Made by a program: the position numbers and the translations under genes. From the NCBI GenBank assembly GCA_900754955.1, contig CAAEEV010000049.1, positions 1 to 15,889 of the forward strand: a DNA stretch of 15,889 nt, read 5' to 3'. The notes beneath the pieces were generated by a model, which was not told the DNA's origin, did no database searches, and saw only the letters and a list, made by a program, of their open reading frames with translations. This DNA comes from Eggerthellaceae bacterium. Lineage in GTDB: Bacteria; Actinomycetota; Coriobacteriia; Coriobacteriales; Eggerthellaceae. Each line of letters begins with the position of its first letter. Within the stretch, counting starts at the first letter, position 1. Shown here piece by piece: positions 1 through 15,889 of this stretch.

Positions 1-1248
1 CTCCTTCTTGCCGCGCGTGGCCGTGAGCTTGCCCTTCGCGAGCAGCTGTTTGCAGTACGGCTCGTAGGCGGGATTGCCCGCGATCGTGCGCACCACTTCG
101 GCAAGGTCGAGCGAACTCGGGTACACCGTGTTGTCGACACGCGGGTAGGAGATGTAACCGTCCATGTAGAGGCTCTCGGCGATGCGCATGGTACGCGCAG
201 GCGACAGCCCCTCAGCCGAAGCGGCCGCCATAAGCGAGGTGGTGTTGAACGGCACGGGCGGCGCCACCTTGCGCGTGCGCTTCTCGATCGCCGCCACGCG
301 AGCTGAGTGCGCGCCCTCCACGGCCGCCATGGCTGCCTGTGCGGCCGACTCGTCCTTGAAGCGCGCCGTGGCGTGGCCCGCCGTAAACGCAAGCTCGCCC
401 TCGCCGTCGGTCGGACCCGCCTCGGCCGCCGCGTCGAACGCGCCCTTGATCACCCAGTAGTCCTCGGGAACGAACGCCATGCGCTCGCGCTCGCGCGCCA
501 CGATGAGCGCGAGCGTGGGCGTCTGCACGCGGCCCGACGAGCGCACGTTGCCGTAGCCTGCGAACTTCACGAGCGTGAGGTAACGCGTGAGCGCCGCGCC
601 CCAGATGAGATCGATGTCCTGGCGCGACGCACCCGCTGACGCGAGGTTGTCGTCCATCTCAACGAGGTTGGAGAATGCGCCCGTGATCTCGGGTTTCGTG
701 AACGCCGAGTAGCGCGCACGGTATACGGGCGCCGTCGCGTTCACCTCACGGCAGCACGACAGCGCATCCGACCCGATGAGCTCGCCCTCGCGGTCGAAGT
801 CGGTGGCGATCACGATGGTGTCGGCCTTCTTCGCGAGGTTCTTGAGCGAGCGGATGATGTCCTTCTCTTTGGGAAGCTTCTCGATGGGCGCGTACACGAG
901 ATACGGCAGCGCCTCCATCTTCCAGCCCTTGAGATCGACGCCGTCGGCGGTGAAGGGCTTCTTCTTTTTGAACGGGGGCTTCGCGAGCGTGTCGGGGATC
1001 TGCGCGGGGACCGACTCGCCCTCGGCGGTCACGCCTTGCCAGCCGCCGCGCTTCTTGTACACGAGCGACGGCGTGAAATCGGGCTCGAGGATGTGGCCGC
1101 GCAGGCCGATGGTCACCCACTCCTCGCCGTCGAGCTCGAAGCGGTACACGGGCGTGGAGTACACCTTGTCGGCCTTCGGCTTCGTTGCGCCGAGCAAATC
1201 GGCGATCTTCTGAGCTGCGTCGTTCTTCTCGGTTACCACCAGCTTCAC
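1..1248 (-). CDS. topA: Type IA DNA topoisomerase, archaeal TopA-like (partial, 3' end beyond window)
   Basis: Type IA topoisomerases relax negatively supercoiled DNA by cutting and passing one strand through a 5'-phosphotyrosine link. The visible 416 residues begin with a Toprim domain: VVTEKNDAAQKIADLL near the N-terminus carries the catalytic Glu, and D150-F-D-R-E-G-E156 is the DxD metal-binding signature. The central domain has YISYPRVDN, in which Y368 is the expected nucleophile (family consensus YxRTDS). The N-terminus (TEKN..A..IA, then IGLRGHILEPDF) and DFDREGELIG resemble archaeal TopA and reverse gyrase more than E. coli TopA. The GTG start at 1246-1248 is chosen because AGGAGG lies at 1255-1260, 6 nt upstream. 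The gene is open to the left edge, so the C-terminal zinc-finger part cannot be judged. A TopB-type name is possible; the enzyme class is firm. Confidence 0.93.
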   Translation of the reverse strand, partial: MKLVVTEKNDAAQKIADLLGATKPKADKVYSTPVYRFELDGEEWVTIGLRGHILEPDFTPSLVYKKRGGWQGVTAEGESVPAQIPDTLAKPPFKKKKPFTADGVDLKGWKMEALPYLVYAPIEKLPKEKDIIRSLKNLAKKADTIVIATDFDREGELIGSDALSCCREVNATAPVYRARYSAFTKPEITGAFSNLVEMDDNLASAGASRQDIDLIWGAALTRYLTLVKFAGYGNVRSSGRVQTPTLALIVARERERMAFVPEDYWVIKGAFDAAAEAGPTDGEGELAFTAGHATARFKDESAAQAAMAAVEGAHSARVAAIEKRTRKVAPPVPFNTTSLMAAASAEGLSPARTMRIAESLYMDGYISYPRVDNTVYPSSLDLAEVVRTIAGNPAYEPYCKQLLAKGKLTATRGKKE

Positions 1249-1350
1249 GCAGGTCCTCCTTTTCTGCCGCCGGGACGCCTCGCGCCGCAGCGGCTTCCTT
1301 TTCACACGAATGCCCCTACTTGTTTATTTAACGTGTGCGGGGATGCGAGC

Positions 1351-3075: not shown

Positions 3076-4377
3076 CTACGCAGCCGCTTCCGCCGCACGC
3101 CTCTCGCGCTCGAGCACGGGCTTCATCGCAGCGATGGCGCACGCGAGCTGTTCGTCGTCGGGCTCGTTCGTGGTGAGGTATTGCATCTGCATGCCCGGCC
3201 ACAGCACCACCTTCACGAGCGGATTCTCGGGGTGGCTGCCCGCCCACTTCACCGTGATCTCGTACGACACGCCCGCGATGACGGGCATGAGCACGATGCG
3301 GGCCACAATGACGAGCGCGAGCTTCGGCGCACCGTCGGGCACGCCCCAAGCACCGATGAGCGCATTGAGCGGCACGATGGTGTACACGAGGATGGCGATG
3401 ATCATCACCATGATGAGGAACGCCGTGCCGCAGCGCACGTGCAGGCGCGGGAACTGCCGCGCGTTCTCGGGCGTGAGCGGCAGGCCGTGCTCGTAGCAGT
3501 GGATGGTTTTGTGCTCGGCGCCGTGGTACATGAACATGCGGCGGATGTCCTTCATGCGCCCGATGAGCCAGATGTAGAACACGAACACCGCCACGCGCAG
3601 AATGCCGTCCACGATGTTCCACGCAAGCGTGTTCTGGTCGTACTCGCCCACGATGAGGTTGGCGGCGAAGGCGGGCAGCACGATGAACAGCGCGATGCCG
3701 AGCGCCAGGCCGAGTCCGAGCGAGAGCCCCATCTCGAGCGAGCTGAACGCGGGTTCCTTCTCGGCGGGAGCGGCGGCGACGTCGGACGCGAGCCCGGAAG
3801 CGGGCTCGGCGGCGGCGCTTGCGGGCGCGTTGGCGGCGGGCTCGGCGGCAGCGGGCTCGGCATCGCACACGACCTCGAGCGTGCGCTGGGCCCCAAGGCC
3901 GTCGATCATCTCGTCGGGGTTGCCGAAATCGCACTTCCACGAGAATGCCCGCGCAGGCTGCTCGTCAGCTGCGCCGGCGTCAGAAGCGGGGGCGCCTTCG
4001 CCATCGGCGCGCGAAGCCTCCCGCACCGATCGGTCGTCGGCGGGCGTCGCCGCAGCGCTCGATCCGCCCTCCTCTTCCTCATCCGCGTAGGCGTGGTTCG
4101 CGGCGATCTCGAGCGCTTTGAAGCCGAGCATGAGCGACTCCACGAGGGCCGTGCAGCCGCGCACGAGCGGCAGGCGCAGCCAGCGGTTCTTCCCCTTGCC
4201 CGAGGCAAGGTCGTGCTCCTCCACGTAGATGTTTCCGTCGGGCTCGCGCACGGCGGCCGCCCAGTTGAGCTTGCCGCGCATCATGACGCCCTCGATGAGC
4301 GCCTGGCCGCCCACGTGCGTCTTGACGGCGCCGTCCTCCGCGAACGCGCGCGCAAGCTGGCTCTTCTGCTTCGTCAC
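3076..4377 (-). CDS. yqhQ: DUF1385 (YqhQ-family) membrane protein with acidic/Ala-rich insert
   Basis: YqhQ-family proteins are integral membrane proteins of poorly defined function. This 433-residue protein has the family signatures GGQALIEGVMMRG (residues 23-35), HGAEHKTIHCYEH (285-297) and PGMQMQYLTT (394-403). Hydrophobic segments lie at about 214-238, 260-274, 316-340 and 353-372. Residues 99-211 form a low-complexity insert rich in Ala, Glu, Asp and Pro, which makes the protein longer than I would expect for the family (around 300 residues). The GTG start (4375-4377) begins 1 nt after the thyX stop, and a GAGGGA site is embedded in the last thyX codons, so translational coupling is likely. 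The role is not known; the family assignment is firm. Confidence 0.92.
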   Translation of the reverse strand: MTKQKSQLARAFAEDGAVKTHVGGQALIEGVMMRGKLNWAAAVREPDGNIYVEEHDLASGKGKNRWLRLPLVRGCTALVESLMLGFKALEIAANHAYADEEEEGGSSAAATPADDRSVREASRADGEGAPASDAGAADEQPARAFSWKCDFGNPDEMIDGLGAQRTLEVVCDAEPAAAEPAANAPASAAAEPASGLASDVAAAPAEKEPAFSSLEMGLSLGLGLALGIALFIVLPAFAANLIVGEYDQNTLAWNIVDGILRVAVFVFYIWLIGRMKDIRRMFMYHGAEHKTIHCYEHGLPLTPENARQFPRLHVRCGTAFLIMVMIIAILVYTIVPLNALIGAWGVPDGAPKLALVIVARIVLMPVIAGVSYEITVKWAGSHPENPLVKVVLWPGMQMQYLTTNEPDDEQLACAIAAMKPVLERERRAAEAAA

Positions 4378-4378
4378 G

Positions 4379-5059
4379 CTAGTCCCTCGTCACGCGCGGA
4401 TAGGGATTTCCGCAGGTCATCTTCCCTTCGGGGCACGCGCCGCGCACGCAGGGGGCGCCGGCGTCGGCGAACACGAACGGCGCCGTGGGACGCGCGAGCT
4501 CGAGCATGCGGTGCGCCATCTCGCGGATCTCCCACTGAGCGCGGTTGCAGCAGCGCAGGCTGAAGAAGTGCAGCAGCTCGCGCACGTTCATCGTCACGAC
4601 AATCTTGCTCTCCGCCGCATTCGGCAGCAGGTAGCGAGCGTCCTCGGCGGGCACGCCCGCGTCGAGCAGCTTCCGATAGGCAGTCACGCACGCCTCGATG
4701 GCCTCGTCGAAGACGGCCTCCGTCTCGGGCGATGCCGTCACGCTCGCGGGCTTCACCACAGCCACGCCGTCCTTGAACTTCACGTAGCGCTGGCTCTGCT
4801 GGTTGAAGCTCGCGATGCGATGGCGCACGAGCTGATGCGTAAGCGCGCGCGACACACCGTCGATGGCGAAGGTGTAGCTCGCGTGCTCGAGCGTGGAGAA
4901 GTGGCCCGAACTCATAATGGTGGTGAGCACGCTTTTCACGCGCTCCTCGGGCATCGTCTCCATGAGCTCCGCCGCGCCGACGGGCGCATAGCACAGGCGC
5001 GCGGCGGTGGCGATGGCGCGCTCGGGATCGGGGGTGTGGTACAGCAGCTCAACGTGCAT
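4379..5059 (-). CDS. thyX: Flavin-dependent thymidylate synthase ThyX
   Basis: ThyX makes dTMP from dUMP using methylene-tetrahydrofolate and FAD/NADPH, replacing ThyA. The 226-residue product carries the ThyX signature as RHRIASFNQQSQRY (residues 79-92), with R79-H-R81, S84, S89 and R91 in place. Q87 stands where the common motif has Glu (RHRxxSxNE). FFSLRCCNRAQWEIR (165-179) is the conserved nucleotide/FAD-binding region. The C-terminus has a Cys-containing tail (C204, C209, C216, ending CPEGKMTCG), a possible metal or structural site. The ATG at 5057-5059 is chosen because an AGGAGG site lies 4 nt upstream (5064-5069); an upstream in-frame start at 5125 lacks one. It is first in the thyX-yqhQ-CCG cluster. 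Confidence 0.97.
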   Translation of the reverse strand: MHVELLYHTPDPERAIATAARLCYAPVGAAELMETMPEERVKSVLTTIMSSGHFSTLEHASYTFAIDGVSRALTHQLVRHRIASFNQQSQRYVKFKDGVAVVKPASVTASPETEAVFDEAIEACVTAYRKLLDAGVPAEDARYLLPNAAESKIVVTMNVRELLHFFSLRCCNRAQWEIREMAHRMLELARPTAPFVFADAGAPCVRGACPEGKMTCGNPYPRVTRD

Positions 5060-5235
5060 GGGTCCTCCTTGCAGGCATGTCGCGGTTCTGGGCGGCGCAT
5101 CGCGCACCACGCGGGCGGTCTGCATGCGGTTAGCGCACGAGGCGCTCGTCGCCCCGCGTAACGCAGATGCAAATCACGCGCAGTTGGCGCAGATCACGCG
5201 CCGCAGAAAGACAATGCCGAATCTTGCTTTCGCTC

Positions 5236-5579: not shown

Positions 5580-6479
5580 ATGACCGATTCGTTCATCCCC
5601 CGCCTCACCACAACCGACTGGGGCGAGGAGTGGAAACAGCTGCAGAAGGCGCGCCGCGCCGCCGACGACCCCGCCCACTGGGACGAGCGCGCCAAAACCT
5701 ACGGATGCGCCGACCCCGCCTCGCTCTACGTGCGGAAGTTCCTCGAGTTCGCCCAGGTCAAACCAGACGAAACCGTGCTCGACATGGGCTGCGGAACGGG
5801 CGCCATCGCGCTGCCGCTCGCCGCAACAGGCTGCAACGTGATCGCCGCCGATTTCAGCCGCGGCATGCTCGACGTGCTCGAGAGCACGGCGCGCAAGCGC
5901 GGCATAGCACACGACGCCGTCAGAACCGAGTTCATGAGCTGGGAAGACGATTGGGAGGCGCACGGGATCGGAGAGGGAAGCGTGGATGTTGCCGTGTCCT
6001 CGCGCTCGATCGCCACCGCCGACCTGCGCGACTCGCTCGAACGCCTCACCCGCGTGGCACGCCGCCGCGCGTGCATCACGCTCGCTGCAGGCTCGTCGCC
6101 GCGCACCGACGAGCGCATCCTATCGGCCATCGGCCTGCAAAATCGGCTCGGTCGCGACTTTCTCTACGCGTTCATGATCCTCTGCGACATGGGGTACTAC
6201 CCCGAGGTGCGCTACATCCCGAGCAAGCGCGCCGACAGCTACGACTCGGCGGAGGAGGCGTTCGTCAATCTACAGAAGATGGTGCGCGACGCCGCGGGCG
6301 AGATGACGCCGGAAGCCGAGGTCGCCGCAGCGCTGCGCAACCTCGAGCGGTGGATCGGCAGCAACCTTGTGGATAACCCCGCTGCAGGAACCGCCGACGA
6401 GGACGGCAACGTGCAGAAGCGCTACAAGCTGAGGGAAGCGCGCACCGTCACCTGGGCGTTCATCGCCTGGGACAAGTAA
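5580..6479 (+). CDS. Class I SAM-dependent methyltransferase (first paralogue)
   Basis: A 299-residue methyltransferase with a Rossmann fold. Motif I is VLDMGCGTGAIALPLA (66-81), the acidic ribose-binding position is D91 in IAADFSRGMLDVLE, and SSRSIATADLRDSLERL (140-156) takes the place of the motif IV/V region. An N-terminal helical segment (WDERAKTYG, 34-42) precedes the SAM domain, and a C-terminal domain (about 175-299) probably contacts the substrate. The ATG at 5580 is preceded by GGAAGGAG. The gene converges on the P-loop NTPase gene at 6605 and is clearly paralogous to the methyltransferase at 7891: both share the SSRS(I/L)xTxDL block and an aromatic WxxxxW end. The substrate is not predictable. 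A perfect DnaA-box 9-mer lies in its coding sequence at 6368-6376. Confidence 0.9.
   Translation: MTDSFIPRLTTTDWGEEWKQLQKARRAADDPAHWDERAKTYGCADPASLYVRKFLEFAQVKPDETVLDMGCGTGAIALPLAATGCNVIAADFSRGMLDVLESTARKRGIAHDAVRTEFMSWEDDWEAHGIGEGSVDVAVSSRSIATADLRDSLERLTRVARRRACITLAAGSSPRTDERILSAIGLQNRLGRDFLYAFMILCDMGYYPEVRYIPSKRADSYDSAEEAFVNLQKMVRDAAGEMTPEAEVAAALRNLERWIGSNLVDNPAAGTADEDGNVQKRYKLREARTVTWAFIAWDK
6368..6376 (-). other. Perfect DnaA-box 9-mer (TTATCCACA on minus strand)
   Basis: TGTGGATAA on the plus strand is the complement of the consensus DnaA box TTATCCACA. It lies inside the methyltransferase gene and encodes part of NLVDNP. A single box is not an origin, and chance cannot be excluded, but it lies only about 230 bp from a parS site. 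Confidence 0.3.
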
Positions 6480-6532: not shown

Positions 6533-6600
6533 TGCATGTCGCGGAGAAGGGGGTTTGCTGCCACTTCCGCCGCCGCAATCGGCGCTGTGGGCTCGACGAA

Positions 6601-6616
6601 TGTTTCACGTGAAACA
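6601..6616. other. parS: parS chromosome-partition site 1 (overlaps NTPase stop codon)
   Basis: TGTTTCACGTGAAACA is identical to the widely conserved chromosomal parS sequence to which ParB binds before spreading as a CTP-dependent clamp and recruiting SMC. The dyad extends further: bases 6596-6621 form a perfect 26-bp palindrome. Read on the minus strand, the first half encodes the last residues of the NTPase (C-F-T) and supplies its TGA stop (6605-6607). Site identity rests on an exact 16/16 match, and a second copy lies 457 bp away. Confidence 0.93.
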
Positions 6617-7501
6617 TTCGTTCGCAAGCGCGAGATCAACGCCGCATGCACGCGCCACGGCAACGGCGCCTTCGGCGTCGGGATGGATCACCTGCACAGC
6701 GCCCCATGCGGGTTCGAACTGGGCGCGTGCAGCCTCGAGCAGACGCGCACGCACCACCACAAGCGCGTGCGGCCACCGCGGCGTCGAACCACCCTCGAGC
6801 AGGTGCAGCGCGCACGACAAGCCCTCGCCGCGCTCGAGCTCCATCCACCCGAGCTCGTCAACAACGAGCAACCGTGCGACACAGCGCGCATCTGCGGAAG
6901 CGGCAACACCAGGCCGCTTCCCAGCATGCTTGCGCTGACACCATGTGTCGTGGGATGCGTCCGAATCCGAGGGAGCGTCCATCTCGAGTGGATCCTCGGC
7001 ACCTTCATGCCGCCCCACGCCCTGCGGAATGGTCGCAGAATCAACCGCTCCTCCGAATGTTTCACGTGAAACATTCGTTCGCTCCGAAAGAGTGGGGGCA
7101 AGAGGATCATACGGGGCGCACGAGCAAGACGGAGCGGACGGGCAAGGCGGGGCCGACGGGGCAAGCGGGGCCGGCACGTCGCCCGCTTGCGCCACCGCGC
7201 GCCCCAGCTTCGCGAAATGCTCGTTCACAAGCGCGACAGCCTCCTGCGAGAACACCCATCCACAGCTCTTGCCCGCCCCTTCAACCAGGTCGGCGCGACG
7301 CGCGAATTCAATCGTCGGACCGTCGGGCAGCAGACGGTTCTCAATGGCAAGCTTCTCGAAACCGCCACACCCGTCCTCGCGCCACACGCCGGGAGCAATC
7401 ACGCCATCGGCGCCCACGCCGAGCGCGCGCAGACCGTCGAGCAGCCGCAGCAGCCACCGCGTCTTGCCCGTCTGCACATCACCCGTCAGCATGAACAGCA
7501 T
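6605..7501 (-). CDS. THEP1-like P-loop NTPase with a parS-bearing low-complexity insert
   Basis: A 298-residue protein whose ends resemble the NTPase_1/THEP1 family of small nucleoside-triphosphatases. GDVQTGKT (residues 7-14) is the Walker A loop and LLVVDELGWMEL (211-222), with D215 and E216, is the Walker B motif; family members have VxDEIGxMEL there. Family proteins are about 180 residues. The extra length is an insert at about 107-207 rich in Pro, Ala, Ser and Cys, including an 18-bp tandem repeat at 7138-7173. The insert holds T-N-V-S-R-E-T-F (142-149), which is simply the translation of parS site 2. The C-terminus ends inside parS site 1. The ATG at 7499-7501 has a GGGGGA site upstream; M4 is an alternative start. 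Methyltransferase genes flank it on both sides. The natural nucleotide or RNA substrate is unknown. Confidence 0.82.
   Translation of the reverse strand: MLFMLTGDVQTGKTRWLLRLLDGLRALGVGADGVIAPGVWREDGCGGFEKLAIENRLLPDGPTIEFARRADLVEGAGKSCGWVFSQEAVALVNEHFAKLGRAVAQAGDVPAPLAPSAPPCPSAPSCSCAPYDPLAPTLSERTNVSRETFGGAVDSATIPQGVGRHEGAEDPLEMDAPSDSDASHDTWCQRKHAGKRPGVAASADARCVARLLVVDELGWMELERGEGLSCALHLLEGGSTPRWPHALVVVRARLLEAARAQFEPAWGAVQVIHPDAEGAVAVARACGVDLALANECFT
7058..7073. other. parS: parS chromosome-partition site 2 (inside NTPase coding sequence)
   Basis: This is an exact second copy of TGTTTCACGTGAAACA, with the perfect palindrome extending over 7054-7077 (24 bp). It lies wholly within the NTPase gene in the low-complexity insert and is read as N-V-S-R-E-T-F. 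The flanking bases (CGAA and TTCG) are shared with site 1, so the two sites are identical over 24 bp. Confidence 0.93.
7138..7173. repeat. 18-bp tandem repeat in the NTPase low-complexity insert
   Basis: Bases 7138-7155 and 7156-7173 are two copies of an 18-bp unit starting ACGGG and ending CGGGGCCG, matching at about 15 of 18 positions. They encode a repeated Pro/Ser/Ala stretch on the minus strand, suggesting that the insert grew by slippage next to parS. Confidence 0.55.
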
Positions 7502-7890: not shown

Positions 7891-8769
7891 ATGACGAGCT
7901 ACCGCGACATCGATTGGGCGAACTGCTTTCACGAGCTGTCTCACGCCGCCGACAAGGACGAGGCGGGCAGCGAGAAATCGCGCAGAGCATGGAACGAGAA
8001 GGCGCCCTCTTTCGCACGCAAGATGAAGCGTTCCGGCTACATCGGCAAGCTCATCGACCTCATGGCGCTCGACCCGAGCGAGACCGTGCTCGACTTCGGC
8101 TGCGGATCGGGAACGCTCGCCATCCCGCTCGCCCGCGCGGGGCACGCCGTGCTCGCCTGCGATTTCTCCCCCGTCATGCTCGAAGAGCTCGAGCGCGCCG
8201 CGGGTATCGCAGGCGTGGCCGTCGCCAGGCAGACCGCCCTGCCCGCACCCGGCGCCATCGCCATCTGCGAACGGTCGTGGCAGCAGAGCTGGGACGACCT
8301 CCCCCGCGCCGACGCGGTCATCTCGTCGCGCTCGCTCATCACCGACGACCTTCCCGACGCCATACGTAAGATGGAGGCGCACGCCACGCAGCGCGTCGTG
8401 CTCACCACGGGCGTGGGCGACCTCCCCTACCGTGACGCGCGCATCCTCGCCGCCATGGGGCGAAACACCGACGACGCGCTCGATCCCGCGCAGCTCGCCT
8501 GCATTGTGAACTACCTGTTCAGCATCGGCCGCCTTCCACGCCTCGACTACATCGAGGTGCCCGGCCCCTGGCACCGCAGCACCCGCGAAGAACTCGAGCA
8601 GGCGATTCGCCGTTCCCATACACCGCAGTCGCTCGAGGAGGAGCGTGCACTCGCTGCCTACCTCGATGCGCACATCGTCTTCAACGATGCCGAGCAGCGC
8701 TTCGAGCTCGACTATCCGCGCACCAACCGCTGGTCCTACCTCACATGGGAGCCGCCCGCGCACGTCTGA
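7891..8769 (+). CDS. Class I SAM-dependent methyltransferase (second paralogue)
   Basis: A 292-residue methyltransferase with motif I VLDFGCGSGTLAIPLA (66-81, read through ETVLD), acidic D91 in LACDFSPVMLEELE, and ISSRSLITDDLPDAIRKM (144-161). It aligns along its length with the methyltransferase at 5580: an N-terminal WNEKAPSFARKM-type segment, the same motif spacing, the shared SSRS block, DARILAAMG against DERILSAIG, and an aromatic end (WSYLTWE against WAFIAWD). The ATG at 7891 follows a GGAGCG site. It is transcribed away from the NTPase gene. The arrangement of two paralogues around one NTPase suggests shared function, but the substrate is unknown. Confidence 0.9.
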   Translation: MTSYRDIDWANCFHELSHAADKDEAGSEKSRRAWNEKAPSFARKMKRSGYIGKLIDLMALDPSETVLDFGCGSGTLAIPLARAGHAVLACDFSPVMLEELERAAGIAGVAVARQTALPAPGAIAICERSWQQSWDDLPRADAVISSRSLITDDLPDAIRKMEAHATQRVVLTTGVGDLPYRDARILAAMGRNTDDALDPAQLACIVNYLFSIGRLPRLDYIEVPGPWHRSTREELEQAIRRSHTPQSLEEERALAAYLDAHIVFNDAEQRFELDYPRTNRWSYLTWEPPAHV

Positions 8770-8817
8770 TCACCCCCCGCGCGACCGCGTGCGCACCACA
8801 TCCCCGGCGCCGCCCCT

Positions 8818-8826
8818 TGCTATAAT
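8818..8826 (+). promoter_or_regulatory. Extended -10 promoter for the glycan cluster
   Basis: TGCTATAAT is a perfect extended -10 element (TGn-TATAAT). No good -35 box lies 16-18 nt upstream, as is usual for extended -10 promoters. Transcription would begin near 8833, about 40 nt before the glycosyltransferase ATG. Confidence 0.7.
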
Positions 8827-8872
8827 GAGGCGCCAGTTGCAAAGGCCCTCGAAAGGCATGCGGAGGTACGCC

Positions 8873-10342
8873 ATGAACATCGACCAGCATTCAGATCCGG
8901 AAGCCACCGAGACCCTGACCCGCGCCGCCGCAACTGCCACCACCGCCCCGACGATCGTCCCTTCCGCGCCGTCTGCGGCGCCCGACAGCCCGCGCCCGCG
9001 CATCGCGGTCGTCACCATGGGCGTCAAGCTCGGCGACGAGACGCGCGGCTACACGCGCTTCCGCTTCCTCTCCGAGCTGCTCGTGCGCGAAGGATTCGAC
9101 GTCGACCTGTACACCTCGTCGTTCCAACACTGGGAAAAGGCCCAGCGCGATCTTACGCGCGCCTGCTACCAAAACCTGCCGTACCGCGTGCGCTTCATCG
9201 AGGAGCCCGGGTACAAGCGCAACCTCGACCTCGCGCGCATTCGCAGCCACCATATCGCGGCAAAGAACCTGCGCCGCATGCTCGAGGAGGAGTTCGCCGC
9301 CGCAGCCGGCACCAACGCGGCAAACGCGGAACCCGCCGCCTCAAGTGCGCACCATCCCGCACCCGCCGCAACCGACGGCACCGCTCCCGCCGCCGCAGCC
9401 GACGCGCCGCGCGCCTACAGCCTCATCTACGCGGAGATCCCGCCGAACGACGTCGCACGCGTCTGCGCCGAGGTGGCGCACGTCCACGGCATTCCCTTCG
9501 TCGCCGACATCAACGACCTGTGGCCCGAGGCCATGCGCATGGCGATCGACATCCCCGTGCTGAGCGACATCGCGTTCTACCCCTTCGCACGCGACGCGAA
9601 GAAGACCTACCGCCTGCTTTCCGCCGCCGTGGGAACGTCCGACGAGTACGCCGCCCGCCCGCTGCACGACCGCACGGAGCCCTGTCCCACGCGCACCGTG
9701 TACGTTGGCAACGACCTCGCAACCTTCGACGCGGGAGTCGCCGCCCACGAACGCGAGATCGACAAACCGCTCGGGGAGCTGTGGGTCATCTACACGGGCA
9801 CGCTCGGCGCGAGCTATGACATCGCCACGCTCATCGACGCCGCCGCCGTCATCCGCGACATGCCCGCCCTTGCCGCGCCCTTCCGCTCGGTGCGCGTGAA
9901 GATCCTCGGCGACGGCCCCGACCGCGCCCGGCTCGAGCAGCGCGCCGCCGAGAAGCGCGCGCCCGTCGACTTCCTCGGCTACACCCCCTACGACCTCATG
10001 GCCGCCTACCTCACCAAGGCCGACATCACGGTGAACTCGCTCGTCGCAAGCGCGCCGCAGAGCATCGTCACGAAGATCGGCGACTACCTCGCAGCGGGAA
10101 AGCCCCTGATCAATACGGGCTCGAGCCCCGAGTTCCGCGCGAAGGTGGAAAACGACGGCTTCGGCATCAACATTCCCGCCGAGGACGCCGCCGAGCTTGC
10201 GGCCGCCATCTGCGAGCTCGCCGGCAAACCCGAGCTGCGCGAGCGCATGGGAAGACGCGCCCGCATGATCGCCGAGCAGCAGTTCGATCAGCCGAAGGCC
10301 TACCTCGCTATCGTGGATTTGATACGCAGTTTGATCGCCTAG
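8873..10342 (+). CDS. GT4-like glycosyltransferase (GT-B fold)
   Basis: A 489-residue retaining-type glycosyltransferase that probably adds a sugar to a polyprenyl-linked glycan at the cytoplasmic membrane face. The N-terminal half starts RPRIAVVTMG (41-50) and includes FVADINDLWPEAM (209-221), typical of the WbuB/Cap group. The donor-binding half has YTGTLGASYD (307-316), ILGDGPD (344-350), VDFLGYTPYDLM (365-376) and SIVTKIGDYLAAGKPLI (397-413), the equivalent of the usual Px(K)xxEYxAxGKP motif. Ala-rich low-complexity segments lie at 10-40 and 141-180. The ATG at 8873 is chosen because CGGAGGTA lies just upstream; an upstream in-frame start would overlap the methyltransferase gene. It is the first gene of a plus-strand cluster with the aminotransferase and sugar transferase. 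Confidence 0.9.
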   Translation: MNIDQHSDPEATETLTRAAATATTAPTIVPSAPSAAPDSPRPRIAVVTMGVKLGDETRGYTRFRFLSELLVREGFDVDLYTSSFQHWEKAQRDLTRACYQNLPYRVRFIEEPGYKRNLDLARIRSHHIAAKNLRRMLEEEFAAAAGTNAANAEPAASSAHHPAPAATDGTAPAAAADAPRAYSLIYAEIPPNDVARVCAEVAHVHGIPFVADINDLWPEAMRMAIDIPVLSDIAFYPFARDAKKTYRLLSAAVGTSDEYAARPLHDRTEPCPTRTVYVGNDLATFDAGVAAHEREIDKPLGELWVIYTGTLGASYDIATLIDAAAVIRDMPALAAPFRSVRVKILGDGPDRARLEQRAAEKRAPVDFLGYTPYDLMAAYLTKADITVNSLVASAPQSIVTKIGDYLAAGKPLINTGSSPEFRAKVENDGFGINIPAEDAAELAAAICELAGKPELRERMGRRARMIAEQQFDQPKAYLAIVDLIRSLIA

Positions 10343-10485
10343 CAACCGCCGAAGGGCGTTTCGCGTCAGAATAATGTATTTGGCTACGAGCGCACGTCGC
10401 CCCTGCGGGCGCGCGAACGCGCATCGCATCCATCCGCGTCGCCTACGGGGCGCGCGGCGTGAAACTCTCCGGCAGAAGGAACGAC

Positions 10486-11754
10486 ATGACGGCATCGGCA
10501 GAAGACCTGCAGGCGAAAACGAGGCACATCGCCTTCTCCCCGCCCGACATCCGCGAGGAGGACATCGAAGGCGTTGTGGAGGCGCTGCGCAGCGGCTGGA
10601 TTACCACTGGCCCGCGTACCAAGGAGTTCGAGCGCGCGCTGACGGACTTCACGGGCGCCGACGGCGTTGCAGCCCTCTCGTCAGCCACCGCCGCGCTCGA
10701 ATGCGCGCTGCGCGTGCTCGGCATCGGACCGGGCGACGAGGTGATCACGTCGGCCTACACGTACACGTCGTCGTGCTCGTGCATCTGCCATGTGGGCGCC
10801 ACGCCCGTGCTGTGCGACACCGCCCCCGGCTCCTTCGAGATGGACTACGACCGCCTCGCCGATCTCATCACCGAGAAGACGAAGGCCGTCATTCCCGTCG
10901 ACCTCGGCGGCCGCATGGTCGACTACGACCGCGTGTTCGACGTTGCGCGCAGCCGCACGAGCGCGTTTCGCCCCGTAAACGACGTGCAAGAGCGCCTCGG
11001 CCACGTTGCCGTCGTCGCCGACGGCGCGCATTCGCTCGGCGCCACCTACCACGGCAGACGCTCGGGATCGGTCGCCGACCTGACCGCGTTCTCGTTCCAC
11101 GCCGTGAAGAACCTCACGACCGCCGAAGGCGGCGCGCTCGCCTGGCGCTGCGACGCGCTCAACAACGACGCCACGTACCGCCAGCTCATGCTGCTGTCGT
11201 TGCACGGCCAGACGAAAGACGCGCTCTCCAAGACGCGCGCCGGCGCCTGGGAGTACGACATCGCCTTCCCCGGCTACAAGTGCAACATGACCGACTTGCA
11301 GGCCGCGCTCGGGCTCTCGCAGCTCGCGCGCTATCCCCAGCTGATCGCGCGGCGGCACGAGATCCTTGCGATCTACCGAAGCGAGCTCGCCGACCTGCCC
11401 GTCGCATTCATGCCGCACGCCGATCATCCCGAGTCCGCCGAAGGCGGCTTCACCTCGAGCGCGCACCTTGCCGTGACACGCCTCACCGGAAAGTCGTCCG
11501 CCTTCCGCAACGCGCTCATCGAGCGCATGGCCGAGCGCGGCGTGGCGACCAATGTGCACTACAAGCCGCTGCCGCTGCTCACCGCCTACCGCGATCTCGG
11601 GTTCGACATCGCCGACTTCCCGAATGCCTCCGCCCAGTTCGAAAACGAGCTCACGCTGCCGCTCCACACGCTGCTGACCGACGACGACGCGCACTACGTG
11701 GCGCGCACGCTCGCGTCCTGCTATCGCGCGCTCGAAGAAGAGGGCGTCGCCTGA
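10486..11754 (+). CDS. DegT/DnrJ/EryC1-family sugar aminotransferase
   Basis: PLP-dependent aminotransferases of this family convert nucleotide-linked 4- or 3-keto sugars to amino sugars using glutamate. This 422-residue protein has the PLP-lysine motif SFHAVKNLTTAEGG with K208, the pyridine-nitrogen Asp in VVADGAHSLGA (D179), and the N-terminal SGWITTGPRTKEFE and TSAYTYTSSCSCI signatures. C-terminal FPGYKCNMTDLQAALG and VHYKPLPLL are also typical. The ATG at 10486 has AGAAGGA 5 nt upstream; an in-frame GTG at 10459 is a weaker alternative. The stop codon overlaps the start of the downstream sugar transferase (TGATG). With a CapD/PglF-type dehydratase nearby, a PglE-like role making UDP-4-amino-4,6-dideoxy-GlcNAc is the best inference. 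Confidence 0.93.
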   Translation: MTASAEDLQAKTRHIAFSPPDIREEDIEGVVEALRSGWITTGPRTKEFERALTDFTGADGVAALSSATAALECALRVLGIGPGDEVITSAYTYTSSCSCICHVGATPVLCDTAPGSFEMDYDRLADLITEKTKAVIPVDLGGRMVDYDRVFDVARSRTSAFRPVNDVQERLGHVAVVADGAHSLGATYHGRRSGSVADLTAFSFHAVKNLTTAEGGALAWRCDALNNDATYRQLMLLSLHGQTKDALSKTRAGAWEYDIAFPGYKCNMTDLQAALGLSQLARYPQLIARRHEILAIYRSELADLPVAFMPHADHPESAEGGFTSSAHLAVTRLTGKSSAFRNALIERMAERGVATNVHYKPLPLLTAYRDLGFDIADFPNASAQFENELTLPLHTLLTDDDAHYVARTLASCYRALEEEGVA

Positions 11755-12392
11755 TGTACGTGCGTTTCGGAAAGCGTCTGTGCGACATCGCGATCGGCAT
11801 CGTCGCGCTGCCGTTCGTGCTCATTGTCATCGCCGTGCTCGCGCCGTTCATCAAGGGCGAGGACGGCGGTCCCGTGTTCTACAACGCGCCGCGCGTGGGC
11901 AAGGACGGCGTCGACTTCACGATGTACAAGCTGCGCTCGATGCGCGTCAACGCGCCCGATCTGCTCATGCCCGACGGCTCCACCTACAACGGTGCCGACG
12001 ACCCGCGCATGACGAAGGTGGGCGCCTTCATGCGCAAGACGAGTCTCGACGAGATCCCCCAGTTTCTCAACGTCCTCAAGGGCGACATGAGCGTCGTGGG
12101 ACCGCGTCCCGATCTGCGTCGCGAGACCGAGCTCTACCAGGGCGAGGAGCACCGCAAGCTCTCCGTGAAGCCGGGCATCACCGGGTACGCCGCCGTGTAC
12201 GGCCGCAACTCGCTGCCGTGGCACGACCGCCTTGCGCTCGACATCTACTACGTCGACCACGTGAGCTTCGCGCTCGACGTGAAGGTGTTCTTCAAGACGT
12301 TCTCCACCGTGCTGAGCCAGGAAGGCGTGTACGTGGAGGATGCGGAAGGCGAAAGCGAAGGCGACGCCAAAGGGAACGGGACCAGCGCCTGA
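11754..12392 (+). CDS. PglC/WcaJ-type polyprenyl-phosphate sugar-1-phosphate transferase
   Basis: This 212-residue monotopic phosphoglycosyl transferase moves a sugar-1-phosphate from a UDP-sugar to undecaprenyl phosphate, starting glycan assembly. It has one N-terminal re-entrant or membrane helix ([24 protein letters not shown] within residues 8-31). The catalytic domain follows, with KLRSMR (59-64), the active-site pair D99-E100 in SLDEIPQ, VVGPRPD (114-120) and [14 protein letters not shown] (139-152). Its length is close to Campylobacter PglC (about 200), without the extra N-terminal membrane domain of WcaJ. The ATG overlaps the aminotransferase stop by 1 nt, implying coupled translation. 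The last 20 residues are an acidic, Gly-rich tail of unknown role. Only 14 nt separate its stop from the convergent LCP gene. Confidence 0.95.
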
Positions 12393-12406
12393 CAGGCAAG
12401 GTCGCC

Positions 12407-13402
12407 CTACTCGAACGAGGGCTCTTCCACGATGCCGTCGGGATCGGCGCCCGCATCGACGACGCGCATGAGCTGCGCCCACGTCTCGGGATCCTCCTTG
12501 ACGACCCAAAGACCCGATGCGTTCTCCTCGCCTTTGTACGGACCGGTGCATGAGTAGATGACCACCTGGTCACGGTGGTTCGCGAAATCCTGCGCGAGCC
12601 GTTCGAGCACCTGCACGTCCAAGTTGCTGCTCGTCGTCGACGAGAACACGCTGCTTGCCGCCGCAGCGGACACCTCGCCGTCAACCACCTTGCGAATAAG
12701 CGCCTCCTCGAGCGCACGCACGTTGACCTGGCGGAGCGCATCCTGGTTGTCGCCGTACTCTTTGCGAGCACGCGCGAGAACAAGCGCCTCCGAGCCGTCG
12801 AGATGCTGGTCATTGCCCGGCTCAAGCTCGACGTCGGCCGCTGTGGAGGGATCCTGAACCTTCACCGCCCGTGGAACATCCGCCTCGACGCCGCCGAGTC
12901 CGTCGACGAGGTCCTCGAACCCGATGAACGTCGTCACGGCATAGTAGTCGGCGTACACGCCGGTGAGGTCCCCCACCGCAGCGACGGCCCTCTCGGGATC
13001 GGCCTCGAGAAACGCCTCGTTGATCTTCGCGTACTGCCCCGCAAGCTCGGTGTCGCGCGGAACCGTCACGAGCGTGATGACGTAGTTGCGCGGATCGACG
13101 CGCACGAGCGTGAGAATGTCGGAACGCTGATCGACCTGCGAGTGCTCGTTGGAGCGACCCGTGTAAAGCGCCGTGCCCTTGCGCGAGTCAGACCCGATGA
13201 GCAGCACATAGAACGGATCCTCGGGAACCGTCACGTCAACGACCACATCGGGCGACACGGAGCCGTCTTCCTGCGGAAACGCGGCGTCGAGCCCCGCCGC
13301 GAGCGCAAGTCCCGCGCATACGACGGCAAACACCACCGCGACGACCGCTGCGGCCATGATCCGCGAGCGGCGCTCCTCTTCCCCGTTCGTTGCCCGGCTC
13401 AT
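12407..13402 (-). CDS. LytR-CpsA-Psr (LCP) family cell-wall polymer ligase
   Basis: LCP proteins transfer polyprenyl-linked glycopolymers to peptidoglycan outside the membrane. The 331-residue protein has a cytoplasmic basic start (EEERRSR), one membrane segment (15-37) and an extracellular LCP domain. The domain carries LLIGSDSR (67-74), QRSDILTLVRVDP (92-104), TVPRDT (113-118) and ARARKEYGDNQDALRQ (210-225), which hold the pyrophosphate and metal-binding Asp/Arg residues. The ATG at 13400-13402 is used because AGGTGA lies just upstream; a further ATG at 13426 would overlap the preceding gene. The start is 4 nt after the WecA-type gene stop, so the two are co-transcribed: one begins and the other anchors a wall polymer. 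Confidence 0.93.
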   Translation of the reverse strand: MSRATNGEEERRSRIMAAAVVAVVFAVVCAGLALAAGLDAAFPQEDGSVSPDVVVDVTVPEDPFYVLLIGSDSRKGTALYTGRSNEHSQVDQRSDILTLVRVDPRNYVITLVTVPRDTELAGQYAKINEAFLEADPERAVAAVGDLTGVYADYYAVTTFIGFEDLVDGLGGVEADVPRAVKVQDPSTAADVELEPGNDQHLDGSEALVLARARKEYGDNQDALRQVNVRALEEALIRKVVDGEVSAAAASSVFSSTTSSNLDVQVLERLAQDFANHRDQVVIYSCTGPYKGEENASGLWVVKEDPETWAQLMRVVDAGADPDGIVEEPSFE

Positions 13403-13406
13403 CGTC

Positions 13407-14570
13407 TCACCTGCCCTCATGGGCATCCGACGAGTCGGCGTCCGCGCTCTCGCGCGGCTTGCGCGGGCCCGTCTTGCCCCGGTTGTCGAAGTGATGCTGC
13501 AACACGAGCCCGGAGACGCCGAGCTTCCACACGAGTACGATAAACACGACAGCGAGCACCGCGATGAGCGCCCAACGCACCACGCCGAACGAACTGCCGA
13601 TGAAGCATCCGCACGCCATCATGGCGGCCGACGCCACCCACAGCACGAGCACCGACCGACGCTGACCGATGCCCTGGTTGAGCAGCTGATGGTGGATGTG
13701 CTTCGCATCGCCCAGCCCCACCGGCTTGTGCTCGTGACGCCGACGCACCACGGCTGCCGTCGTGTCGAGGAGGGGGATGCCCACGATGATGAGCGGAACG
13801 AGCAGCAGCGTGAGCCCCTGGGTCTTCACCACGCCCGATATGGAGATGATACCGATCAGCAGCCCGAGAAGATGCGATCCCGAATCGCCCATGAAGATGC
13901 TCGCGGGATGGAAGTTGAAGCGCAGAAACGCAATGCACACCGCAAGAACGGCAACACTGGCGAGCGCAAGGACGGAGCTGCCGCGCATGATGGTCAGGTA
14001 GAGCAGGCCGATCGCGGCGATGCCGATGATGCCGGCGGCCAGTCCGTCAAGGCCGTCAATGAGATTGGTGATGTTGACGAACACGACGAGATACAGCACC
14101 GAGATCGGCACATCGAGCCAGCCGAGTTCGAAGTAGTCGCCCTGGAACAGACGGATCGTCTCGATGGACACGCCTCCGCCGACCACCACGATAAGCGCCG
14201 CAACAACCTGCGCGACGAACTTCGCCACCGAACGGAGCTGCGTGATGTCATCGACGATGCCGACGCAGAACATGGCGGTGATGCCGATGAAGAGCAGCAC
14301 GTAGTTGACGTCTTCAAGCGTGTAGAGCTCGACCGACCGCCATCCGAAGAAGCGCATCCCAAGGAAAATCACGAAGCACGCCGCGAGGAAACCCGCGTAC
14401 AGTGCGATACCGCCGCAGCGCGGCATCGGCTCTGTTTGGATGTGGCGGTTGCCGGGGTAGTCGATCGCGCCGATCACGTGTGCGAGCCTCTTGGACACGG
14501 GAACCATGGCATAGGTGACCAGAAACGCCACCGCAAACACTATGCCGGCCTGCTGCCACAGAAGATCCAC
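13407..14570 (-). CDS. wecA: WecA/TagO-type undecaprenyl-phosphate GlcNAc-1-phosphate transferase
   Basis: A polytopic PNPT-family enzyme (387 residues, about 10-11 membrane segments) that transfers a HexNAc-1-phosphate, usually GlcNAc, from its UDP-sugar to undecaprenyl phosphate. Visible motifs are PRCGGIALYAGF (50-61), the Mg-binding GIVDD (104-108), FVNITNLIDGLDGLA (164-178) with the nucleophile-region Asp, FMGDSGSHLLG (226-236) and the C-terminal HIHH loop (DAKHIHHQLL, 288-297), which separates WecA/TagO from MraY. The last 25 residues are charged and disordered. The GTG start (14568-14570) has GAGGTAG upstream. It is the first gene of a two-gene unit with the LCP ligase. MraY is unlikely because of the HIHH loop and the context. 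Confidence 0.94.
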   Translation of the reverse strand: MDLLWQQAGIVFAVAFLVTYAMVPVSKRLAHVIGAIDYPGNRHIQTEPMPRCGGIALYAGFLAACFVIFLGMRFFGWRSVELYTLEDVNYVLLFIGITAMFCVGIVDDITQLRSVAKFVAQVVAALIVVVGGGVSIETIRLFQGDYFELGWLDVPISVLYLVVFVNITNLIDGLDGLAAGIIGIAAIGLLYLTIMRGSSVLALASVAVLAVCIAFLRFNFHPASIFMGDSGSHLLGLLIGIISISGVVKTQGLTLLLVPLIIVGIPLLDTTAAVVRRRHEHKPVGLGDAKHIHHQLLNQGIGQRRSVLVLWVASAAMMACGCFIGSSFGVVRWALIAVLAVVFIVLVWKLGVSGLVLQHHFDNRGKTGPRKPRESADADSSDAHEGR

Positions 14571-14589
14571 GTGCTACCTCGATATGCCG

Positions 14590-14611
14590 TACCGCCCGCG
14601 ATCAGGCGGTA
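14590..14611. promoter_or_regulatory. Inverted repeat in the leader of the WecA-LCP unit
   Basis: TACCGCC (14590-14596) and GGCGGTA (14605-14611) form a perfect 7-bp dyad with an 8-nt centre, about 20 nt before the wecA start codon on the minus strand. It could be an operator or a leader hairpin near the ribosome binding site. The neighbouring TATGCCGTA (14584-14592) is shared with the operator-like dyad at 5278-5295. Confidence 0.4.
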
Positions 14612-14656
14612 TTGTTCGTAATCTGTAATATTGTAGCGGAAAAGCACCCAATGATC

Positions 14657-14684
14657 TGCGGCGCACGTACAGGAGCGCCGCAGC
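14657..14684 (-). terminator. Strong 9-bp hairpin downstream of the dehydratase gene
   Basis: CTGCGGCGC and GCGCCGCAG form a perfect 9-bp stem with a 10-nt loop. Read on the minus strand it lies about 150 nt after the dehydratase stop and is followed, after 12 nt, by CTTTT. It may end the dehydratase transcript, but the T-run is short and displaced. It could equally be a leader structure of the wecA unit. Confidence 0.4.
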
Positions 14685-14701
14685 TGGAAGGCGCAGGCTC
14701 A

Positions 14702-14792
14702 CCCGCACGCGCGTCTCACGCGGCGACGCGAAGGCGAGACCATGCACATCAGGACCGTCCCAGCGGCCCACCCCGCACGCGCGCCTCACGCG
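14702..14792. repeat. 21-bp direct repeat pair, 70-bp spacing
   Basis: The segments at about 14702-14722 and 14772-14792 share CCCGCACGCGCG, then CTCACGCG, with a single difference. They lie in the intergenic stretch between the dehydratase stop and wecA. No function is apparent. Confidence 0.55.
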
Positions 14793-14833
14793 CTGCTTCC
14801 GCCAACGCGGCGCGCCAACCCGTCGCGCGAGCC

Positions 14834-15889
<1,056 letters not shown>

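Follow-up and report, generated by a model that had tools for sequence, protein, structure and literature searches.

The window analysed here is a stretch of 15,889 bp from an Eggerthellaceae bacterium. It contains two exact copies of TGTTTCACGTGAAACA, at 6601-6616 and 7058-7073, with starts 457 bp apart. Both are associated with a minus strand gene predicted to encode a P-loop NTPase. The features of the window referred to below are as follows.

1-1305, minus strand: DNA topoisomerase gene, truncated at the edge of the window and used as synteny anchor (79% identical at 1,368,446 in the relative G061)
3076-4377, minus strand: gene for a DUF1385 protein (PF07136)
4379-5125, minus strand: thyX, flavin-dependent thymidylate synthase (PF02511; 88% identity in G061)
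5580-6479, plus strand: methyltransferase MT1, part of the conserved neighbourhood
6601-6616, no strand: putative parS site 1, a 26-bp exact palindrome that overlaps the NTPase stop codon
6605-7501, minus strand: THEP1-like P-loop NTPase of 298 aa (PF03266 at 23.6 bits, cut-off 23.9; fold match 2i3b)
7058-7073, no strand: putative parS site 2, a 24-bp exact palindrome (CGAA, the 16-mer, TTCG) in the NTPase linker

The copy at 7058-7073 is located wholly within the NTPase open reading frame, where it encodes the peptide VSRET (codons 144-148, minus strand). The copy at 6601-6616 makes up the final three codons of the same gene plus its stop (CFT-stop, minus strand) and extends 4 bp beyond the stop. 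The right flank TTCGTTCGC is common to the two copies. A scan of the window with up to three mismatches gave no match to TGTTTCACGTGAAACA beyond the two exact copies. In 200 dinucleotide shuffles of the window the mean number of matches was 0.01, and none of the 200 had two. In the chromosome of G061, 0.0001 exact copies would be expected, and chance occurrence was ruled out on these numbers. The original prediction, made from the sequence of the window, had described two exact 16-mers 457 bp apart, a palindrome reaching 24-26 bp, an occurrence not credible by chance and a location inside an NTPase gene. All of this was borne out, with the 7058 copy fully inside the gene and the 6601 copy spanning its stop.

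The parS consensus is reportedly that of Livny et al. 2007. We take the 16-mer of the family to be this consensus and to be different from the Noc site. As judged from sequence, both 16-mers of the window are almost certainly parS sites. The match to the consensus is exact, the codon usage of G061 gives P ~8e-7 for VSRET encoded as GTT TCA CGT GAA ACA, and one strong ParB is encoded in 16/16 relatives. The identification as parS, also part of the original prediction, is thereby well supported.

The NTPase starts with the P-loop. It narrowly misses the gathering cut-off of PF03266, and NCBIfam gave no family for it, while three close homologues (P0002, P0005 and P0006) are labelled PF03266 in the database. 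An AlphaFold2 model, built on a 28-sequence alignment (mean pLDDT 73.2), is confident in both halves of the core and falls below a pLDDT of 50 at residues 112-116 and 118-206, the linker. Codons 144-148, encoding VSRET, are inside this low-confidence linker. The THEP1 fold was recovered; the sole PDB match with E <0.001 was 2i3b, the human cancer-related nucleoside triphosphatase (E 5.5e-4, TM 0.56 by target). The window protein thus resembles the THEP1 family in its P-loop core with matching fold, but differs by the long insert that hosts the parS and by its score just below the cut-off.

The NTPase is flanked by two related methyltransferase genes, at 5580-6479 and 7891-8769, the latter with its best match (40%) in a Gordonibacter locus (L016). 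A sugar/polysaccharide cluster at 8645-15889 adjoins the NTPase region and encodes a glycosyltransferase, a DegT aminotransferase, an LCP protein, a WecA-like protein and a UDP-sugar dehydratase.

We counted the exact 16-mer in 138 genomes of the family, that is the family of Rubneribacter badeniensis (G008). It was found in 125 of them, with a median of 4 and a maximum of 148 copies, and a reversed-pattern control gave 0 in every family genome row. At least 10 copies are present in 35 of the 138 genomes, at least 20 in 28, and 103-148 in ten. In a class-level draw of 396, 285 genomes placed outside the family by their handle carry at most 4 copies, and in a phylum-level draw of 396 the maximum outside the family was 21. 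The parS-poor genomes searched for both parS and ParB (G001, G003, G005, G027, G029 and G047) have every exact site within 4 kb of parB (6/6). Ancestrally, parS was probably confined to a few sites next to parB. No paper on parS expansion in Eggerthella or its kin appeared among the titles and abstracts listed from the open-licence literature, and judged from that literature only, the family-wide expansion is apparently undescribed so far.

A single strong ParB-HTH match was found in each of 16 relatives (E between 1e-33 and 1e-35), and a single ScpB in each of the 12 relatives searched. Extra weak ParB-HTH matches occur in several genomes, parS-rich and parS-poor alike; a second HTH_ParB match was absent from G061, G060 and G062. 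The numbers of strong ParB and ScpB do not separate parS-rich from parS-poor genomes, because there is one of each throughout. Extra ParB paralogues were rejected as the cause of the expansion, since both kinds of genome have one strong ParB and both have weak extras. The ParB of G066, a genome with 107 parS sites, can be aligned to solved structures of ParB and Noc along its CTPase and HTH regions, with 7bnk as the best match (E 1.8e-53). It begins with the motif LGRGLNSLL, presumably the ParA-binding motif of ParB. The peptide DVSRET is encoded in the N-terminal part of the G066 parB gene (L247, 943-2001), and a parS also lies in the G061 called gene with the ParB-HTH match (3625563-3626612).

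The array was followed along G061, a single contig of 3,632,260 bp with ParB at 3,625,770, 6.2 kb from the record end. G061 has 130 exact parS genome-wide. The parts read, from 0 to 2.40 Mb plus the final 80 kb (2.48 Mb), contain 83 and 27 sites respectively, and the remaining ~1.15 Mb contains 20 by subtraction. Outward from the origin, the sites per 100 kb number 23, 13, 4, 10, 5, 4, 6 and 2. Further out there are 0 sites at 0.8-1.3 Mb, 8 at 1.34-1.46 Mb around the NTPase, and then 8 up to 2.4 Mb. For the satellite cluster of 8 sites (1.344-1.458 Mb), a test against sites placed uniformly over 0.8-2.4 Mb gave p 0.0006, or p 0.012 with doublets collapsed; the region had been spotted prior to testing. 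A few sites persist near the skew maximum, at 1.72-1.84 Mb. The second genome, G060, has a gradient like that of G061 among the 92 sites listed, but more mid-arm sites and also a group of six at 2.16 Mb, all inside 8 kb and about midway along its 4.2 Mb. A trio of sites beside the NTPase is common to the two genomes (1417919, 1419342 and 1419376 in G060; 1352279, 1353736 and 1353770 in G061). An even scatter of the 16-mer around the chromosome had been named by the original prediction as an observation that would count against it; the 16-mer is indeed scattered in the relatives, yet it is graded from the origin and not even.

In the parts of G061 that were read, 110 sites are exact, 18 have one mismatch and 6 have two. 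The 16-mer is maintained in G061, because the 110 exact copies stand against just 18 with one mismatch. Going by this spectrum and by the parS codons used for VSRET, the 16-mer is kept by selection at the DNA level, a conclusion that applies to the relative G061 rather than to the species of the window. By rough gene calls, 80 of the 110 sites are intergenic, and several of the short ORFs overlapping sites may be false. The same calls give 88.5% coding in the first 2.4 Mb of G061; one source gives 88.4% for the chromosome of the Eggerthella lenta type strain (PMC3035228). Convergent genes border 26 of the 80 intergenic sites, and such intervals make up 15% of the intergenic length. Two long called genes near the origin, at 71791-74064 (757 aa) and 193969-196731 (920 aa; loci L120 and L126), hold four and three in-frame parS sites respectively.

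The position of the window was assessed by synteny. The genes topB, DUF1385, thyX, MT1 and NTPase are found in this order and with matching relative orientation at 1,353,273-1,369,693 in G061. The glycosyltransferase and DegT of the window match 2.37 Mb in the same genome. The region has been rearranged, since these two genes, in the right half of the window, have their counterparts elsewhere in G061 than the genes syntenic at 1.353-1.369 Mb. Cumulative GC skew over the part of G061 that was read has its maximum at 1.90 Mb. With ParB at 3,625,770 and the skew peak at 1.90 Mb, the NTPase of G061, ~1.36 Mb from parB, is ~70% of the path toward the skew peak. Origin distance was measured to parB on the same contig. 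The NTPase is ~1.4-1.5 Mb from parB in G060 (contig C1 taken as a closed circle of ~4.2 Mb), 1.28 Mb in G063 and 1.13 Mb in G030, so that the carriers of a linker site with parB on the same contig (G061, G060, G063 and G030) have the two at least 1.1 Mb apart in 4/4 cases. The NTPase is nearer parB in four non-carriers, at ~0.2 Mb in G001 and G005, 0.56 Mb in G003 and 0.4 Mb in G066. G001 and G005 are parS-poor and G066 is parS-rich, and none of the four has a site in the NTPase. Since the linker-site carriers are distal, and weighing this against the four non-carriers, we consider an origin-proximal position of the window unlikely and suggest, from synteny with relatives only, that its locus is origin-distant. 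The original prediction of a window probably close to the origin did not hold up, with the NTPase 1.13-1.5 Mb from parB in four linker-site carriers.

The NTPase was also followed in relatives at the level of protein. We found 268 homologues, and peptides were counted in 120 among the matches listed. VSRET and/or FHVK, the two full translations of parS, are present in 22 of these 120. The closest homologues among the matches listed (P0001-P0006, 87-94% identical) all keep, at the protein level, VSRET and the terminal CFT (6/6). The linker is otherwise variable in length and sequence, and several homologues without VSRET have a short one. In the called genes of the first 2.4 Mb of G061, parS accounts for 11 of 12 VSRET peptides and its inner 12 bases for 12 of 14 FHVK peptides.

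At the level of DNA, the set comprised 41 family genomes, made up of 30 loci plus 14 loci with three genomes in both; the 14 added loci were picked toward parS-rich genomes. An exact parS is present in the NTPase linker of 6/41 (G061, G060, G063, G062, G030 and G075). It is a doublet, 34 bp apart, in G061, G060, G063 and G030, and single in G062 and G075. The NTPase of the other 35/41 genomes contained no exact parS, G008, G066, G067 and G092 with >100 copies each among them. The linker site is present in five of the nine genomes that have at least 100 parS copies plus an NTPase match. A contig search with the window protein alone gave no relative. With alignment A1 the search gave 53 NTPase loci, which overlap the 41 genomes, and an exact parS in 1/53 (L002, E. 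sinensis, the same genome as G062). By these sequence comparisons, several species have conserved the linker site at the DNA level.

Based on these observations, we think it likely that the parS of the window are an origin-distant locus, in the NTPase linker, of a dispersed and origin-graded array served by one canonical ParB. Both palindromes, parS by their sequence, would be nucleation sites of the chromosomal CTPase ParB. In brief, Eggerthellaceae and kin would have started from a few parB-adjacent parS and multiplied them to tens or >100 copies, spread out and graded from the origin, all served by a single canonical ParB, with presumably a normal SMC-ScpAB. Each site would most likely load sliding ParB clamps. 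The expected outcome is that ParB occupies the origin-proximal arms in a graded fashion and also sits on satellites like the NTPase locus. Such satellites may organise or mark the DNA of the arm and may be places of SMC loading remote from the origin, or they may only buffer ParB. The NTPase linker may tolerate the parS because it is disordered. The NTPase enzyme itself is probably a passive host, with no role in segregation.

In its chromosomal ParABS, the family resembles other bacteria in the identical 16-bp palindrome and in the ParB and ScpB of the relatives. It differs in having up to 148 exact copies, where one to 20 parS per genome are given for other bacteria in one source (PMC10197239), in the spread of its sites over >1 Mb, and in a conserved satellite within a gene far from parB. 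Pseudomonas aeruginosa is likewise described with hundreds of ParB sites dispersed over the chromosome, but these are 7-bp half sites, whereas the family has full 16-bp palindromes that are kept exact (PMC7022226). Published limits on placement make the array unexpected. A second parS cluster is described as tolerated only within ~500 kb in Caulobacter (PMC5815017), parS as required within a ~650 kb region around oriC in P. aeruginosa (PMC5098823), and loading sites in B. subtilis as tuned in number and spread against SMC collisions (PMC8357415). Scatter of parS is in itself not new, because the last source reports scattered parS in a few lineages including Bacilli (PMC8357415). The number of sites and their distance from the origin are new as far as literature searches show.

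A related possibility, compatible with the dispersed array, is that ParB uses the scattered 16-mers chiefly as a map for nucleoid occlusion or division timing, in the manner of Noc but without Noc. We regard this only as a tentative idea. G061 has >100 dispersed sites, many of them on the origin-proximal arm and few around the skew maximum. This recalls Noc of B. subtilis, a ParB-family reader of ~70 scattered palindromes with none in the terminus region as described in one account (PMC4331003). The single HTH_ParB match of G061, G060 and G062 agrees with this, and it is also where these three genomes differ from B. subtilis; weak extra matches occur in some other genomes. Sites do remain close to the skew maximum of G061 and at 2.16 Mb in G060, which speaks against a map of this kind, as does the ParB of G066 with its putative ParA-binding motif. 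Going further, we speculate, with the same reserve, that the ParABS of Eggerthellaceae may form a chromosome-wide map of at least 100 exact parS, in which one ParB does the jobs of both ParB and Noc (positional information, arm organisation and division timing). The NTPase-linker satellites would then be distal loading stations outside the 'permissive zone' and the SMC-collision limits of Caulobacter, Pseudomonas and Bacillus.

A classical origin-proximal cluster, in which the window would be beside oriC and parAB and the two sites would be two of a handful, is unlikely. It agrees with the exact consensus in the window, with the parS-poor relatives (6/6 with all exact sites within 4 kb of parB), with the NTPase being just ~0.2 Mb from parB in G001 and G005, and with a source placing the vast majority of parS in the ori domain (PMC7022226). 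It is disfavoured by the synteny and by the distance of 1.13-1.5 Mb between NTPase and parB in the four carriers of the linker site. In addition, a Pfam scan of ten window proteins showed no ParA, ParB or DnaA.

Another reading traces the sites to a small palindromic element, mobile or selfish, that contains parS and whose NTPase copies are neutral insertions. The flanks of the 110 G061 sites have the consensus CGAA...TTCG, more weakly CGAACGAA...TTCGTTCG. Covariation across the dyad at flank positions 1-3 (z 3.8-4.8) speaks for such an element. Doublets with 34-bp spacing share an 18-bp spacer near TTCGTTCGCGCAAACAAA at 8 places, four of them in NTPase linkers (L087, L088, L102 and L258) and four elsewhere (L189, at 1456611 in G061; L271 in G070; L272 in G074; L273 in G071). 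The window sites have the first half of such a spacer. However, no flank consensus was found past ~8 bp on either side of the 110 sites, and the spacer occurs only in doublet classes. The 110 exact against 18 one-mismatch copies are unlike decaying insertions, and the same NTPase linker is occupied in several species. We thus find a small element quite improbable as the source of the sites. A larger mobile element was rejected, as the flank sequence of the 110 sites is not shared.

A second doublet class has a spacing of 48 bp. A further site, ~1 kb upstream of the NTPase (L087:507 and L258:505), forms a 32-bp palindrome without a mismatch in both G061 and G060. Its counterpart in G063 (L088:573) has two mismatches in the core, and its flanks are altered on both sides yet still complementary.

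That the palindromes are RNA hairpins such as transcription terminators instead of ParB sites is very improbable: although 80/110 of the G061 sites are intergenic by the rough calls, 26/80 of these between convergent genes, and five of the 110 have perfect palindromes of 36-40 bp, TTTT follows in ~4% of right flanks, the part that does not vary coincides exactly with the 16-bp parS, and of the window copies one is within a coding sequence and the other at its end. Intrinsic terminators were rejected, with a T run after the hairpin in just ~4% of the 110 sites.

A dispersed, origin-graded array would have consequences for annotation and for chromosome biology. Annotators should read VSRET and FHVK in such proteins as sites at the DNA level rather than as protein motifs. 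A human gut bacterium with 130 exact parS and a station shared between species >1 Mb from parB would be a natural exception to the rule that parS belong at the origin only. Such an exception would make the origin-only rule, the avoidance of SMC collisions and a Noc-like use of ParB directly testable.
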